A DNA stretch of 28,540 nucleotides. Origin: a virus. Below, piece by piece: positions 1,598 through 18,114 of the stretch. Location: positions 1-28,540 of the IMG/VR virus record IMGVR_UViG_3300025759_000507; one strand, written 5' to 3'. The notes under the pieces were generated by a model. That model made no database searches, was not told the origin of the DNA, and worked only from the letters and a program-made list of their open reading frames with translations. The first letter of the stretch is position 1. Each line of letters starts with the position of its first letter. Position numbers and translations under genes: made by a program.

Positions 1598-4318
1598 TTA
1601 CTTCTTTTTCTTCTTAGGCTTAGATGCGAGACCGCCTTCTGAGAAACCTCCACCACGTTTTACTTTAGAGGTGTAAGTCTCTTTACCTTCATCATCAGTA
1701 CGTGCATCTGTTCCTTCACTTACCGATACACGAGCAGCCGCCCTGTCCCTATTTACCTCATTTACCCGTGCTCTAAATGTAGCTCTAGCAGATTCCTTAG
1801 GGCTTAATACACCATCGTCATCGTCAGTAGGCTGAGTTACAATATCAGACCCTCTTGGGCTATCAGGAGCATCTCTAAGTGCGGCAATATCATCGTTAGC
1901 CGCTTTAACTTCTGCTGTTTCTGCAGCTGTTGCAGCAGGAGTGTAACCTGCCTCAGGAGTGTAGCTGTATGGTTCTGTTACACCAGGAGTATCAGTCATA
2001 GCTGCTTGTACTGCCTCAGGGGTCATTACAGGAGGCGGTGCAGTAGGTGCTACCTCAGGCTTCTTAGCTTCTTCTGTCTTACCAAACAGACGCTCAAACA
2101 AACCAGGCTGATCTGCAGTCATAGTCTCTGTAAGATCTGTATAGAAAGCCTTCTGCTTAGCATCCAGAGAAGGATCTTTCATACGTCTAGCAAGCTCTTT
2201 AGTGACTTGCTTAGATTGATGCCACGTAGCTGCTTTGAAGGCCATACCAATAAGAGGATTAACCATACCTAAGCCTAATGCAATAGCGGTTCTACTTGTA
2301 TCTTTCTGTGCATCAACTAGATCACGTAACTCTGATGCTGACAAGCCTTTGTAGTCAATAGGCTCTGGATCGGATGCACTTGGGTCAAACCCACTATCAT
2401 CATCACTAGGTGCAGCCTCTTTAGCTTCGCTAGGTACAGCATCAGGAGTGTAGGGAGAATACCCATCAGGCACTGCACTCATAGGCATACCGTTGAAGAA
2501 CAGAATAGTAATGATATTACCTGCAGCATTGCTGTACTGGCGCTGCTCCATGCCTGTGTTTTGGTAGTTCTCTTCTGTCAGAGGGATGTCACCTGTATCA
2601 ACTAAGCCACCAGGAGCATAACCAGAGATGTAACCACCCTTGTTCATCATAGGCTGTTCTTCTTCACCGTCATCAACTATCTGTAGCTCAGAGATGTCAA
2701 AGGGTAGTTCGTCACCACCCATCTCCATACCAATAGGTTCACCACCAATACGTCCATTAGCTTCCATAGCATTGAAGCCTGTCTTAGCTTCTGTGCGTAG
2801 ATCCTCAAAGAACTTAACACCAAAGAAACGAACTACATCAGCAGGTACAACATATTCACCTTCACTTAGTTGAGCGGGGATGTCATCACGTACTTCTTCT
2901 GGTAAGGAGCCTGTAGGGACTTCATTGCCTGACACAGGGTCTACATCCTCCGCTAGACCACCTATTGCAAAGGCTCTTACTGTTTGATCGTCTTCGCCCT
3001 GAATTAAATCGTCAGCCATGCCTGTGGCTATTAGAGAATCTTGTTGGCCTGCGTACATATCTTCTTCTCCTACTAAACCACCCTTAGCGAACTTACGTCC
3101 TAGTATTTCTTCTATTTCATCCCTGTAAGGGAGATCTTTTACACCAGCAGCCTCTTGTGCTGCCTTTGCTTCTTCACGACTTAATACACGGTTAACTTTC
3201 ATATCACCGCCTACTACCCATGTTTCAGCATCTGCCTGACCGTCTTGATAAGTATAGCTACCGCCAGAAGGAAGTTTATCGTTTATGTCTGTCCTGTTAC
3301 GCTCCTGCATGTATTTTAAAAGATCTTCACTGGTATCATCTGCCATGTCTACCTCAACAAAGACCTGATCCTCTGCTCTGCGTTTTACATAGTATTTCTT
3401 CTGGGTCTTTACTCTTTTCTTATCTTCTGCAGATAATTCAGCTACCTTCTTTTTGCCTACAAGCTTACCGTCAAGATAGTTAAAGGTTTTTGCTTTAAAG
3501 GCTTTTGGTGTTACTCCTGCCTTTAAAAGCTTATTCCTTTCAGCAGAAGTAATAATAAGATCCTCTGGACCTAAGTGATGTGCAACAGGCTTTGTAGTAG
3601 CATGAAAACCAGGTCTAGAAGCAACCGCTCTTACTTTGCCAAAGGGTGCAGATTTACTAGGTTTTTCAACAGGAAATCCTGCTTCTCTTAGTTTATCTGC
3701 AGTCTCTTGGTCTGGAAGGGTCTGCATATCTCCTGTTGCTTTAGACTTTTCACCTTTAGATCTTGCAGCGCCTCTACTGGGTACATACATATTACCATTA
3801 GCACCTTTAAAGGTGACAGGCGGTACAGATGCTGATACCCATTCACCAACAGGTATCTCATCAGAAGCATTAACAAATAACGGATATAACTTCCCATCAT
3901 CCGCCTGTGTTGCTATTCTATAAGCGCTTCGTGTCTTCTTGAATGGCTGTTTAGGTTTTAATTGTACATTACCAAGACCAGAACCCATAGCATTAGGATC
4001 TACCTCTACACGCTTAGCTACATCAAATACTTCTTTAGCACCCTTCTTAATAGCTTTAGCAGCAGCATCGCCTAAACCTGGTACAAGTCCTACAAGAGCA
4101 GCACCGCCCAGCGCACCTGCTAAGTAGTAATTAGGCTCATCTTTTTGTAGTTCGTCATAGACATCTTTAGCAGCCATAGCGTCACCAATGATAGGTGTAG
4201 CACTAGCAACAAAGGTAGCAGCATCTTTAAAAGACACCTCTGGAATATCGACTGCAAGCTTCTTACCCTCTGCAGCCCAACCTAAAGCTTCCTCTGTCTG
4301 CTTATCTAAGTCAGCCAT
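1598..4318 (-). CDS. Large virion-associated protein, polyvalent or toxin-like architecture
   Basis: This 906-residue protein lies between portal and scaffold genes, where podoviruses often keep internal or ejected proteins. Residues about 30-95 form a hydrophobic Gly-rich segment with two related turns, TPIIGD (41-46) and LVPGLGD (78-84), which resembles pre-toxin regions of polymorphic toxins. Residues about 128-400 look like a folded domain: AYRIAT (132-137), GFHATTKPVAHHLG (237-250), VFVEVDMADD (319-328), WVVGGDMKVNRVL (367-379). This recalls domains of large polyvalent proteins, perhaps ADP-ribosyltransferase-like. Beyond 410 it is low complexity, with five GGL or GGY repeats (near 413, 453, 561, 570, 895), an EGEYVVPADVV motif (486-496), and a Lys-rich end. 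Domain naming is inference; a virion role rests on position. Confidence 0.5.
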   Translation of the reverse strand: MADLDKQTEEALGWAAEGKKLAVDIPEVSFKDAATFVASATPIIGDAMAAKDVYDELQKDEPNYYLAGALGGAALVGLVPGLGDAAAKAIKKGAKEVFDVAKRVEVDPNAMGSGLGNVQLKPKQPFKKTRSAYRIATQADDGKLYPLFVNASDEIPVGEWVSASVPPVTFKGANGNMYVPSRGAARSKGEKSKATGDMQTLPDQETADKLREAGFPVEKPSKSAPFGKVRAVASRPGFHATTKPVAHHLGPEDLIITSAERNKLLKAGVTPKAFKAKTFNYLDGKLVGKKKVAELSAEDKKRVKTQKKYYVKRRAEDQVFVEVDMADDTSEDLLKYMQERNRTDINDKLPSGGSYTYQDGQADAETWVVGGDMKVNRVLSREEAKAAQEAAGVKDLPYRDEIEEILGRKFAKGGLVGEEDMYAGQQDSLIATGMADDLIQGEDDQTVRAFAIGGLAEDVDPVSGNEVPTGSLPEEVRDDIPAQLSEGEYVVPADVVRFFGVKFFEDLRTEAKTGFNAMEANGRIGGEPIGMEMGGDELPFDISELQIVDDGEEEQPMMNKGGYISGYAPGGLVDTGDIPLTEENYQNTGMEQRQYSNAAGNIITILFFNGMPMSAVPDGYSPYTPDAVPSEAKEAAPSDDDSGFDPSASDPEPIDYKGLSASELRDLVDAQKDTSRTAIALGLGMVNPLIGMAFKAATWHQSKQVTKELARRMKDPSLDAKQKAFYTDLTETMTADQPGLFERLFGKTEEAKKPEVAPTAPPPVMTPEAVQAAMTDTPGVTEPYSYTPEAGYTPAATAAETAEVKAANDDIAALRDAPDSPRGSDIVTQPTDDDDGVLSPKESARATFRARVNEVNRDRAAARVSVSEGTDARTDDEGKETYTSKVKRGGGFSEGGLASKPKKKKK

Positions 4319-11030: not shown

Positions 11031-11302
11031 TTTACTTTATCAGCCCAATACGCAGCAGAGAGCTTACCCTTCTTGATATTCTTAGCATGTCTAGCTTTGA
11101 AGGATGCACGTTTCTGTTTCATGCGATCAGATTCACCCGCTTTAGGCTTGCCTGCTGTGGACGCTCCCTGTTCACCGAAGCGGATGAGCTTAATGGTGTC
11201 ACCTTCTTTGGCAAGTACAGCGTGGGACTTGGTAGGGTGCTTGGGAGTACGCTTGGGTTTGTTGTAACCTTCAAACTTCTCACCTCTATACTCAATCGCC
11301 AT
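11024..11302 (-). CDS. Conserved basic protein, 92 aa
   Basis: The middle KLIRFGEQGASTAGKPKAGE and the end YWADKVKW form a pattern I recognise as strongly conserved in marine phages, with an RFGEQG motif followed by a Lys/Arg-rich helix (RMKQKRASFKARHAKNIKKG). It is very basic and probably binds nucleic acid or packs inside the head. It starts 11 bp inside the upstream gene. No named function can be given with confidence. Confidence 0.65.
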   Translation of the reverse strand: MAIEYRGEKFEGYNKPKRTPKHPTKSHAVLAKEGDTIKLIRFGEQGASTAGKPKAGESDRMKQKRASFKARHAKNIKKGKLSAAYWADKVKW

Positions 11303-11552
11303 AAGGTCTCTTCCTGTCAGGGTCTAACACATCACTGCGAGATAACATGCCCTCTAAGTACATCGCCCTCTCTACGTGATCTAAAGTGTACCGCACCCCA
11401 GTGTCAGCCTCGATAGCTGCACGAACATAGAACACGTCACTACGAGGGATATGAATACGGCGTATACGCTTGGCACTACCGTCAGCTAAAGCAGTGTAAA
11501 ACTCTTCTAGTATGTTATCATCTGCATATAGTTGTACGGGTTTAACAGTCAT
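11292..11552 (-). CDS. First gene of the left arm, conserved small protein
   Basis: The ATG at 11552 gives 86 residues. A longer frame exists to 11591, but its extra residues look non-coding and overlie an inverted repeat. The core RRIHIPRSDVFYVRAAIEADTG and the end MLSRSDVLDPDRKRPYGD are a conserved marine-phage pattern as I recall. It is the promoter-proximal gene of the left operon, about 145 nt from the predicted start site of the 11703-11731 promoter. Function is unknown. Confidence 0.65.
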   Translation of the reverse strand: MTVKPVQLYADDNILEEFYTALADGSAKRIRRIHIPRSDVFYVRAAIEADTGVRYTLDHVERAMYLEGMLSRSDVLDPDRKRPYGD

Positions 11553-11577
11553 TGTCAACACTTTTCTTAATAAAAAA

Positions 11578-11652
11578 GGTACGTGTCGCAAACTACATGT
11601 TAGGAGAGAGGAGACATGAGGAGAGTGTACACATATGTTTGTGACACGTACC
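11578..11652. repeat. Inverted repeat, 16 bp arms
   Basis: GGTACGTGTCGCAAAC (11578-11593) and GTTTGTGACACGTACC (11637-11652) are inverted copies matching at 15 of 16 positions, separated by 43 bp. It lies just before the first left-arm gene and would fold in the leftward leader RNA. The loop holds purine-rich AGGAGAG copies. Confidence 0.75.
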
Positions 11653-11777
11653 AGGAATGTAACACTTATGTTTATACAAGTTTATGTGTGTTACATATGG
11701 ATAGTGTACAAACTATTAAGAAGGGTGTCAACCCTATAGTTAAACTATCTAAGTTAAACTCTTCCTATGTCCAGTAA
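11616..11777 (+). CDS. Candidate 53-aa ORF with an excellent ribosome binding site
   Basis: An ATG at 11616 follows AGGAGAGAGGAGAC, the same purine leader found before many right-arm genes, and the frame runs to TAA at 11777. The product is rich in Tyr, Thr, Val and Cys (MRRVYTYVCDTYQECNTYVY) and is not recognised. It overlies repeats and leftward promoters, and no rightward promoter is visible ahead of it, so it may be an accident of sequence. Confidence 0.25.
   Translation: MRRVYTYVCDTYQECNTYVYTSLCVLHMDSVQTIKKGVNPIVKLSKLNSSYVQ
11657..11696 (-). other. Stem-loop at the predicted 5' end of the left-arm transcript
   Basis: On the minus strand ATGTAACAC (11696-11688) pairs perfectly with GTGTTACAT (11665-11657) around a 22 nt loop. 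The first stem base lies 7 nt after the -10 element TACACT (11708-11703), where transcription should begin. The word GTGTTACATA recurs at 11961-11970. Confidence 0.5.
11703..11731 (-). promoter_or_regulatory. Predicted proximal leftward promoter
   Basis: On the minus strand TTGACA (11731-11726) is followed by a 17 bp spacer and TACACT (11708-11703). The -35 is perfect, the -10 matches four of six bases, and the spacing is ideal. It would drive the virion arm starting at 11552. Confidence 0.55.
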
Positions 11778-11855
11778 CTTTATTAACACACTCTTTATAT
11801 AGTTTAACTATTTATTATTTATTACTTGTATTAAGTTTAACTTAAATGTTTAACT
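11736..11855. repeat. Cluster of AGTTWAACT iteron-like repeats
   Basis: AGTTAAACT occurs at 11738-11746 and 11752-11760; its inverse AGTTTAACT occurs at 11801-11809 and 11834-11842, with a TGTTTAACT variant at 11847-11855. The 13-mers at 11736-11748 and 11799-11811 are exact inverted copies. TTAAGTTTAACTTAA (11831-11845) has 7 bp inverted arms. One more copy lies before the 13314 gene (13288-13296). They may be operator sites or origin iterons. Confidence 0.65.
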
Positions 11856-11875
11856 CTGTCTACTACTACTACGTA

Positions 11876-11903
11876 GTTATACTCCACAGAACACCCCTGT
11901 CAA
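11876..11903 (-). promoter_or_regulatory. Predicted distal leftward promoter
   Basis: On the minus strand TTGACA (11903-11898), a 16 bp spacer and TATAAC (11881-11876) then TA give the same layout as the capsid and 24345 promoters. The -10 matches five of six bases. Its transcript would cross the AGTTWAACT repeats, so those could be operators. Confidence 0.6.
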
Positions 11904-12222
11904 TCCCTAAAATACACGTACTCGTAAGAAAGTTTTACTAATGAGCGGATCTTTGCCTATGTGTTACATAAATGCACCACTTATTATGCTTATGTGTTTG
12001 GAATGTGGCAACAATAAGGCAACCTAAAATACCCGTGCGTGTAGTTGTACATATACGTAGTACCATATGACCCCCCATGGCCCTCGCACCCCTCTCTTTT
12101 AGCATGGCATAGGGCGATTTATGGTGGTTTGACTGAGTAAGTTACTGTAATTGCTATACTCTTTAACTGATGCTTCGTCAGCCTATTCAAGAAAAGCGTG
12201 TGTTTTCAAGGAGTTTCAAAAG

Positions 12223-12237
12223 TGTGATCACAAATAG
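12223..12237 (+). promoter_or_regulatory. CRP-like palindromic operator candidate, copy 1
   Basis: TGTGATCACAAATAG contains the perfect 10 bp palindrome TGTGATCACA. An exact 15-mer copy lies 54 bp downstream, about five helical turns, so proteins bound at both would face the same side of the DNA. The half-site TGTGA equals that of CRP, but the usual 6 bp spacer is absent. Confidence 0.5.
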
Positions 12238-12276
12238 AAGAAGGATGCATAAAACACCAAACCATATCCCCCATTA

Positions 12277-12291
12277 TGTGATCACAAATAG
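12277..12291 (+). promoter_or_regulatory. CRP-like palindromic operator candidate, copy 2
   Basis: This is the exact second copy of TGTGATCACAAATAG. Its centre lies about 50 bp ahead of the start site predicted from TATAAT at 12320-12325, suitable for an activator or roadblock. A related TGTGATCATA occurs at 12851-12860 near the first right-arm gene. Confidence 0.5.
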
Positions 12292-12319
12292 CATACCCCC
12301 TCTAAGCAATGGCTGACTA

Positions 12320-12325
12320 TATAAT
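12320..12325 (+). promoter_or_regulatory. Perfect -10 box without a -35, possible activated rightward promoter
   Basis: TATAAT stands at 12320-12325, but the bases 16-18 bp upstream are C/T-rich and unlike TTGACA. Together with the palindromes upstream this fits a promoter that needs an activator. It would read into the hairpin-rich leader and the right-arm genes. Confidence 0.35.
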
Positions 12326-12546
12326 GGCACAAAAGAAAAACATTCCAGCCAAGCCACAATGCCACAACATTATCCAACGAAAACACAGACTTATAAAATA
12401 ATTAAAATAATTCTTTACAATCGCAAACCATTCAGGCCATAGTGAATACATCGAAAGCGACAAGGTTCAACCGATAGCAGCGTAGCTCTACAAAAGAATC
12501 AGCGTCCTAGGCGATCAAGCCGCATAGAAGAGCCGCACAGAATATG

Positions 12547-12575
12547 AAGACCGAATAAAAGTAAGACCGAATAAA
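12547..12575 (+). repeat. Tandem repeat AAGACCGAATAAA
   Basis: Two exact 13-mers lie at 12547-12559 and 12563-12575, 16 bp apart, with degenerate relatives nearby (AAACCGAAT at about 12592). The unit is too short and too few to be a CRISPR. A protein binding site is possible. Confidence 0.5.
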
Positions 12576-12649
12576 TAAGACTTGACTAACTAAACCGAAT
12601 CAGCCCACGATAGGGTAAGACCAAAGAGACTAAACGTTATTTGACATAT

Positions 12650-12812
12650 CCCGTTAGATCGGGCCTTGCACTACGACAATGCGGTAGTGGAATCCTTGCT
12701 AGGATATAGGCACATAGACAAGCGCATTCATGTTGGATGATAGGATTGACAATCCTTGGCTCTAACTAGACCGATAAACACACGGCGTATACATGCGATA
12801 ATTGCGCCCGTG
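12650..12812 (+). other. Cluster of short hairpins in the rightward leader
   Basis: In order there are CCCG/CGGG (12650-12663), CACTAC/GTAGTG (12669-12689), ATCCT-TGCT-AGGAT (12692-12705), AGGATT-GAC-AATCCT (12742-12756), and CACGGCG with CGCCCGTG (12781-12812, one bulge). None is followed by a T run. They may form a structured untranslated leader RNA or mark an origin. No match to a known RNA family was recognised. Confidence 0.4.
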
Positions 12813-12977
12813 GTCTCTTCTTTCTAGGGGAGTTTGGCTCAAAGGGTGCGTGTGATCATAAACGTAGCACGATTTATAAGATATAGCTAGGATAGGCATG
12901 TCCAAGATTGTGCCTATCTCATGGTGTATCTAACCAATCACCTTAACCAATTAAATCTAACACAAGGACTGACCCCC

Positions 12978-13244
12978 ATGTATGTAATCGAAAAGAACAT
13001 CCCAATGCCAAACGTAACTCGCCATGGCGTTCCACAATATAAATACCCCTTCTTAACCATGAAAGTGAATGACAGCTTTGCTGTGCCTGTAGATCCAACC
13101 ACCACGCTAAACTATATCCGTGTGGCTAGGCGTGTGGCTAAGAATATACAAGACCAATATGAACGCTCAGACAATAACGGCATGAAGTTTTCATATCGCA
13201 CAGATAAGGTGAACCGTGTGATCCGTGTCTGGCGCACAGCATAA
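12978..13244 (+). CDS. First right-arm gene, small conserved phage protein
   Basis: The protein has 88 residues and starts MYVIEKNIPMPNVTRHG. It contains KYPFLTMKVNDSFAVPV, then a helix with IRVARRVAKNIQDQ, and ends with KFSYRT...VIRVWRT. This layout (KYPF..M..GDSF.VP, then a helix, then strands ending RVWR) is common among small phage proteins of the DUF7303 type, as I recall. The ATG at 12978 has AAGGA upstream; an earlier in-frame ATG at 12921 lacks such a site. Function is unknown. Confidence 0.65.
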   Translation: MYVIEKNIPMPNVTRHGVPQYKYPFLTMKVNDSFAVPVDPTTTLNYIRVARRVAKNIQDQYERSDNNGMKFSYRTDKVNRVIRVWRTA

Positions 13245-16417: not shown

Positions 16418-16639
16418 ATGACTAACACACAAAACTCTAAGATCATCACACACCTTCGTGCAACCAAGGGTCTGACCCAGCGTGAGGCTATGCTGGACTA
16501 CAGCATCCAGTCATTCACTAAGCGTATCTCTGAGCTACGCAAGTCAGGCTACCGCATTGATGGTGTGAAGGGTAAGCATCCTGTGACAGGTCAGCAGTAC
16601 ACACGCTATGTGCTTATTGATGAAACTAGTGGAGCATAA
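16418..16639 (+). CDS. Winged helix-turn-helix DNA-binding protein (HTH_39 type)
   Basis: The 73-residue product contains ITHLRATKGLTQREAMLDYS, IQSFTKRISELRKSGYRI and a wing-like end GQQYTRYVLID. The pattern L...LT..EA...Y.I....RI.ELR..GY.I matches a small helix-turn-helix family common in phages (HTH_39). It binds DNA and could regulate phage or host promoters. It starts after AAAGGAGAGAGAC. The 73 bp gap before it holds TTGACG (16363-16368) and TATAAA (16391-16396), but not at promoter spacing. Confidence 0.75.
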   Translation: MTNTQNSKIITHLRATKGLTQREAMLDYSIQSFTKRISELRKSGYRIDGVKGKHPVTGQQYTRYVLIDETSGA

Positions 16640-17193: not shown

Positions 17194-18114
17194 ATGAAGA
17201 TCCCCAAGGCTTCTTCCACACTACAGGAAGTCATTGATTTCTATAGTAAGTCTGCTGCATTTTGTCGGCTATCAGGCTCTACACAGAAAGACTATGACAT
17301 CCACTTGGCTGCGGTATGCAGCACTGTAGTTGAGGGCAAGGCACTTGGGGCTTATCGCCATAAGTATATCAAGGTTCGTCACCTCACTCAGGCTTACGAG
17401 GACTGGTTATCCTCTGGTGTTCGCACAGCGAACTACCGCAAGTCAGTGTTATCTATTGCGTGGAAACATGCAATGAGGCATGACGTAATGACGCACGATC
17501 CAGTAGCTCTAGTACAAACCAGGTCTGGTCAACCACGGCGTGTACTATGGAGCCGAGATCAAGTGCAGACATTCCTTGCTACAGCTTATGGCGACTTCCG
17601 TTGGCGCAGCATTGGTCTGATCGTCCACATGGCATATGATTGGGGGCAGCGTGTTGGTGACATGCGTGTTCTCACTTGGGATAAGTTAGACTTAACTCAG
17701 TGCCGCTTGGACTTAACTCAGAGCAAACGCAACGCAGAGATACACCTCCCCATCTCATCAGGGTTGTGTGATATGCTGCGCCAGCAGAAGGAAGACTTTA
17801 AGTTTCAGGAGTATGTAGCACCCCGTGTTAAGCCACGAGCAGGGGCATACACACCCTACGATAAACTAGAAATAAGCTATCTTATCAATGACGTACTGAA
17901 AGAAGCTAACCTACCTACCACCCTGACAGCCATGGACTTACGGCGCACGGCAGTGACAGAGATGATGGAGGGTGGGGTAGACTTAGCAGGGATCATGCAG
18001 GTGACAGGACACAAGAACATAACGTCCATCAAACCCTACATGGTCAACACATTCAGCGGTGCATCGAAGGCACTAGCAGCTAGAGGGAATGATGACGATG
18101 GACTTAATGAGTAG
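17194..18114 (+). CDS. int: Tyrosine recombinase (phage integrase)
   Basis: The 306-residue protein has an N-terminal SAM-like core-binding domain (about 10-105) and a catalytic domain (about 115-300). Catalytic residues are R153 (in DWGQRVGDM), K178 (QSKRN), R250 (MDLRRTAV), H273 (GHKN) and nucleophile Y282 (KPYM). The usual His of HxxR is Met (M247). It would cut and rejoin attP and a host site, giving lysogeny potential. It is embedded in the replication arm as in temperate T7-like marine phages. No attachment site or tRNA fragment was seen next to it. Confidence 0.9.
   Translation: MKIPKASSTLQEVIDFYSKSAAFCRLSGSTQKDYDIHLAAVCSTVVEGKALGAYRHKYIKVRHLTQAYEDWLSSGVRTANYRKSVLSIAWKHAMRHDVMTHDPVALVQTRSGQPRRVLWSRDQVQTFLATAYGDFRWRSIGLIVHMAYDWGQRVGDMRVLTWDKLDLTQCRLDLTQSKRNAEIHLPISSGLCDMLRQQKEDFKFQEYVAPRVKPRAGAYTPYDKLEISYLINDVLKEANLPTTLTAMDLRRTAVTEMMEGGVDLAGIMQVTGHKNITSIKPYMVNTFSGASKALAARGNDDDGLNE

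Follow-up and report, generated by a model that had tools for sequence, protein, structure and literature searches.

The original study of AkgR is said to describe a GntR-family regulator that activates TCA-cycle genes. Among the AkgR binding sites of Rhodobacter sphaeroides, another source lists GTGATCAC (PMC6365646). Sites for a host regulator, PhoB, lie at several cyanophage promoters and are backed by gel shift, according to a second paper (PMC10976474). HMO-2011-type phages are described in a third as dominant and broadly distributed marine viruses (PMC9038755). Little was found in the literature on the promoters of HMO-2011-type phages, and a paired-palindrome element such as the one described below has no report in the literature searched, which mostly excludes subscription papers, nor did term searches within PMC9038755 and PMC6918029 bring one up.

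The window, the whole 28,540-nucleotide stretch of viral DNA analysed here, has two arms: by its gene annotation, a left arm on the minus strand with packaging and head genes, and a right arm on the plus strand with replication genes. The arms diverge from a non-coding control region at 11592–12977 (1.39 kb, delimited by the open reading frame list and the sequence, no strand assigned), portions of which align with dozens of retrieved loci. It is flanked on the left by c0, the first left-arm gene (11292–11591, minus strand, 99 amino acids), for which searches of Pfam and PHROGs gave zero matches, and on the right by the first right-arm gene (12978–13244, plus strand, 88 amino acids), which is weakly DUF7303-like, scoring 20.7 bits, under the 27-bit cut-off. 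The DNA polymerase is 71–74% identical to those of Roseobacter phages CRP-207, CRP-603 and CRP-2 and 55% identical to that of Puniceispirillum phage HMO-2011; by DNA polymerase and gene order alone, the phage appears to be a member of the HMO-2011-type group. The right arm also contains an integrase gene (17194–18114) that matches PHROGs 1 and 216.

Inside the control region, about 631 bp from c0 and about 691 bp from the first right-arm gene, lie two exact copies of the palindrome TGTGATCACA, at 12223–12232 and 12277–12286, neither with an assigned strand. Each extends to the 15-mer TGTGATCACAAATAG (12223–12237 and 12277–12291, 54 bp from start to start), just as the initial annotation had recorded. 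The 10-bp palindromic core that it described is equally sound: among the 17 10-base palindromes of the window, which are of 16 kinds, TGTGATCACA is the only one to occur twice. The 10-mer occurs twice where a first-order model of the window predicts 0.06 exact copies (probability of at least two, about 0.002); for the 15-mer the prediction is 0.0001. Allowing one mismatch raises the matches to the 10-mer to 6, versus a shuffle mean of 1.7, and 6 are reached in 2 of 100 shuffles. Seven 15-mers are repeated in the window, so repetition alone is not rare; among these seven, the TGTGATCACAAATAG pair is the closest together and the sole palindromic one.

Conservation in related phages, which the initial annotation had put forward as a check, is evident in relatives gathered independently of the motif. 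Nineteen were retrieved via the first right-arm gene, and 17 of them extend at least 860 bp upstream; an exact copy is present in 14 of these 17 and two copies in 12, and in all 12 with two exact copies the spacing is 52, 53, 54 or 55 bp. The three without an exact copy are L107, L114 and L122, the copies in L114 being degenerate. In an alignment of 19 relatives, several of them retrieved by motif, 16 have the first palindrome intact and 16 the second, with small indels between. Across viral contigs, an exact scan with the 15-mer gave 101 stretches, many with one to three more palindrome copies nearby, and pairs 20–50 bp apart occur in at least 120 stretches for the palindrome versus 14 for the reversed palindrome used as a control. 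In a set anchored on c0 (the best 80 of 583 loci), 57 regions extend 900 bp upstream; 25 of them have an exact copy and 17 at least two, and in 21 of the 25 the sites lie 600–860 bp from c0. The exact site is missing in 32 of these 57 regions, which counts against the reading that we favour below. A search of the 32 for substitute doubled palindromes gave AT-rich pairs near c0 alone and none at the usual place. A c0 relative is present in 100 of 187 double-site viral loci, its median start 604 bp from the motif.

Seventeen phage records, with CRP-5 left out, make up the isolate search. Exact copies occur in CRP-603 (4), CRP-2 (1), CRP-13 (2), CRP-1 (2) and CRP-345 (2), and all 11, in 5 of the 17 records, sit in the terminal non-coding region. 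The exact word is absent from 12 of the 17 records, including HMO-2011 (SAR116 host), HTVC033P (SAR11 host) and CRP-207, CRP-9, CRP-3, CRP-212, CRP-235, CRP-738, CRP-4, CRP-6 and CRP-7. These nine Roseobacter phage isolates are without the exact site, and the element is therefore dispensable even in Roseobacter phages. Over the first nine isolate records, the reversed control has 2 copies versus 11 for the word; one-mismatch counts are uninformative in the 17 isolates (37 for the word, 37 for its reverse). The genes flanking the control region in CRP-207 are close to those of the window (88–92% DNA identity); the CRP-207 c0 protein is just 67% identical to the window c0, and a CACACG-rich stretch replaces the palindromes, as if the control cassette had been exchanged. 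A second palindrome, GTTTAACGTTAAAC with its variants, also looks like an operator. The terminal non-coding region of CRP-9 (L399) holds five GTTTAACGTTAAAC-type palindromes with at most two mismatches, 22–33 bp apart, and no TGTGATCACA; that of CRP-13 (L400) holds three GTTTAACGTTAAAC-type copies 31–32 bp apart beside TGTGATCACA.

The 187 double-site loci group into communities by shared proteins. One community comprises 20 loci, 15 of which contain a terminase (the one searched is 81% identical to that of Roseobacter phage CRP-6), and its arrays have a spacing of 22–23 or 32 bp. One locus with a CRP-6-like terminase, L265, has six TGTGATCACA copies exactly 23 bp apart at 3905–4029. The idea that these array phages form an unrelated lineage was dropped: 18 of the 20 have at least one protein cluster in common with c0-bearing loci, several of them replication-type. 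Independent gain of the array is for that reason not supported, and the array may have travelled with a replication-type module common to the c0-bearing loci.

The spacing of neighbouring sites follows the turn of the DNA helix. From 315 neighbouring phage pairs 15–81 bp apart, dereplication (removal of pairs whose spacing was the same and whose ungapped identity reached 60% or more) left 149, whose spacings cluster at 20–24, 29–34, 39–48, 51–57, 61–68 and 73–77 bp. The best period is 10.9 bp with an R of 0.639 (0.604 at 10.5 bp), versus a maximum R of 0.331 in 500 sets drawn under a uniform-spacing null. The scans preset the spacing ranges (20–50 and 51–81 bp), the pairs come from the matches listed and some kinship among them is left, none of which creates a 10.9-bp period. 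The phage palindromes are a conserved, helically phased array. Taken together, 95 host-genome pairs have no clear phasing (R 0.17 at 10.7 bp).

The hosts of the isolates are Rhodobacteraceae, several of them of the RCA lineage, according to the isolate records and PMC6918029. The same 10-mer is present in 56 of 60 genomes of the Planktomarina family drawn regardless of the word, with 291 copies versus 5 of the reversed control, and in 54 of 115 genomes of a class-level sample. Planktomarina, which we take to be of the RCA lineage, is represented by one genome with 8 sites: two before sucC, one before the GntR gene, one inside an sdhC-like open reading frame and four elsewhere. A scan for paired sites gave 110 genome stretches, about 40 of them Rhodobacterales by name and the others ranging from Reyranella to Bifidobacterium. 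At least two copies lie within 200 bp before sucC in 13 of these 110 stretches, and also in L494, L496 and L499; in L495 the pair is between mdh and sucA, preceding sucA. The sucC and sucA pairs are 21 bp apart in the four marine loci opened. In L494, L495 and L499 a single copy ends 7–8 bp ahead of the start codon in a GntR/FCD gene that stands in an lpd–suc–sdh neighbourhood, its frame broken in the L494 assembly. In the likely hosts, the word thus accompanies TCA-cycle genes as well as a GntR/FCD gene, as befits an operator of such a regulator.

The GTGATCAC core is present in the window at 12223 and 12277, as it would be in an AkgR-type operator. A search for GntR domains gave 12 positives among 14 control genomes and none among 23 phage records, of which 22 have the word and some are fragments. 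We consider it probable, judging from sequence, that the palindromes are sites for a host GntR/FCD regulator, most likely of the AkgR type, at the central control region of the phage. By its gene neighbourhood, the marine GntR/FCD gene is a candidate orthologue of R. sphaeroides AkgR. The word is common to other GntR/FCD genes and lineages, so a GntR/FCD binder is likely, with AkgR as the best candidate.

This breadth also feeds a rival reading, that one or several different host GntR/FCD paralogues sharing GTGATCAC read the sites and that the link to the TCA cycle is incidental. Paired sites flank other genes and other GntR/FCD genes, outside Rhodobacterales too, which speaks against AkgR specificity; in several other lineages they adjoin GntR/FCD and aminotransferase genes (cluster 0, 16 loci; cluster 1, 11 loci). 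A close akgR-like gene is missing from some alphaproteobacterial genomes in which several copies occur, and the Planktomarina genome has 9 matches to an akgR-like query, two of which are pieces of one gene. We nevertheless find the paralogue reading unlikely, given that the marine Rhodobacteraceae loci opened cluster their sites at sucC, at sucA and at the GntR gene of that same cluster. At genome stretches such as L292, L306, L319 and L390, pairs of TGTGATCACA 57 bp apart lie beside a glutamate-semialdehyde-aminotransferase-like gene, the gene of cluster 0, whose loci have varied spacings overall; the cluster 0 sites are possibly a second regulon with half-turn spacing.

A possible −10 box, TATAAT, lies on the plus strand at 12320–12325, 33 bp past the second copy. 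It does lack a −35 element, as had been noted: the hexamer lying 17 bp upstream shares 0 of 6 positions with TTGACA, and there is no TG extension. This perfect TATAAT is not a general feature: 5 of 19 relatives have it in exact form past the second site, at 33 bp in L009 and L029 and at 38 bp in L229, L109 and L284. Variants follow the second site in others (TAGAAT at 38 bp in L088, L013 and L078; TATACT at 33 bp in L093), and nine of the 19 have no such box at 33 or 38 bp. The TATAAT at 12320 does not pass as a sigma-70 promoter; the region yields 7 promoter-like hits, versus a shuffle mean of 4.7, and it is not one of them. The proposed third copy, the variant TGTGATCATA, is indeed present at 12851–12860; it is kept in 2 of 19 relatives (L088 and L229), and we attach no meaning to it. 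Among 57 right-hand and 47 left-hand dereplicated flanks of c0-bearing phage regions there is no fixed −10 distance; on the right-hand side the 30–39 nt bin is the highest (12), the other bins holding 2 to 10. In the Planktomarina-type sucC loci L494 and L499 the proximal site is followed by N35 and TATATT. The spacing from site to box, 33 bp in the window and 35 bp in these two sucC loci, would suit activation from upstream.

Two further stretches of the control region are conserved. At 12025–12100 a core consists of a TATACGTA-like sequence and then a C-rich stretch, CCCCCCATGGCCC; it may serve as a promoter, in packaging or at an origin. The 10-mer palindrome TATACGTATA is present in 26 of the 57 c0-anchored regions (from the best 80 of 583). 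The strongly conserved non-coding stretch at 12452–12560 has no Rfam match. Over 11 sequences its consensus fold is weak, at −9.5 kcal/mol with 16 pairs, 3 of them changed on both sides, and it is possibly a leader RNA.

Some phages have the array 200–300 bp from c0, across the conserved TATACGTA and C-rich core. Given an array on either side of this core and no fixed −10 distance, titration and repression stay live rivals: while phage DNA is multiplying its sites may act as a sponge for the host regulator, or this regulator may keep the phage promoters shut until the metabolic state changes. The number of perfect sites, from one to several and six in the 23-bp array of L265, fits either, as do their variable positions, and the site that abuts the start codon of the host GntR gene is placed as for autorepression. 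Weighed against this are the few copies per genome and the helical phasing, which suggests an ordered complex rather than mere binding capacity, and we rate titration or repression as a minority prospect.

A phage-encoded regulator or replication initiator that binds the palindromes as origin iterons is an improbable alternative. The central non-coding position, the repeat arrays, the replication genes of the right arm and the c0 genes near the sites in 100 of the 187 loci are all compatible with iterons, but the same word is enriched in host genomes, none of the 23 phage records has a GntR domain, and relatives of c0 and of the winged-helix protein encoded at 16418 also occur in motif-less phages. 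The winged-helix protein, named in the initial annotation as a candidate binder, is itself unlikely, because CRP-207 encodes a copy that is 93% identical (65 of 70 residues) and has no sites: nowhere does it hold an exact TGTGATCACA, and its terminal region is also free of versions with one mismatch.

A site of the CRP/FNR type, as first proposed, has a half-site, TGTGA, resembling that of CRP, but the CRP consensus is TGTGA-N6-TCACA, with 6 bp between half-sites, and with half-sites that abut here (0-bp spacer) in a host context of GntR/FCD and TCA-cycle genes we reject this reading as barely credible. What stands of the proposed control switch is an intergenic control element of conserved spacing, most likely read by a host protein.

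In the AkgR reading, an AkgR-type protein encoded beside TCA-cycle genes of marine Rhodobacteraceae would bind both palindromes. Separated by whole helical turns, its dimers would be on one side of the DNA, where they could cooperate or hold a loop, and the bound complex at the central divergent region would tie phage transcription to the carbon and energy state of the host. In the window and its closest relatives, the second site may be an activator site for a rightward promoter that has a −10 and no −35. More tentatively, and with somewhat less than even confidence, we suggest that a widespread group of marine roseophages has wired its central divergent region to the TCA-cycle regulator of the host via phased arrays, and that infection thereby proceeds according to the carbon and energy state; relatives without the word may use other phased operators, such as the GTTTAACGTTAAAC-like ones of CRP-9, the operator type being an exchangeable host-adaptation module. 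If a TCA-cycle regulator of the host does read the control region of HMO-2011-type phages, carbon supply would govern how these phages develop in slow-growing ocean bacteria. Host-regulator capture, seen for phosphate in cyanophages, would then include central carbon metabolism and a phased operator array.

Compared with known systems, the window has in common with the E. coli CRP site the half-site TGTGA, and differs from it in having no 6-bp spacer and a different host context. With the AkgR regulon of R. sphaeroides it has the GTGATCAC core in common. Rhodobacteraceae have the word before sucC, before sucA and at a GntR/FCD gene; the sucC and sucA pairs of the four marine loci are 21 bp apart, as opposed to phage spacings of 2–7 turns. 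The cyanophage promoters with PhoB sites are like the window in that a marine phage promoter region has sites for a host regulator reporting metabolic state; whereas the cyanophage case involves phosphate, a two-component system and scattered genes, the window has a single central divergent region in which a word of the GntR/FCD type forms a phased array of putative operators.
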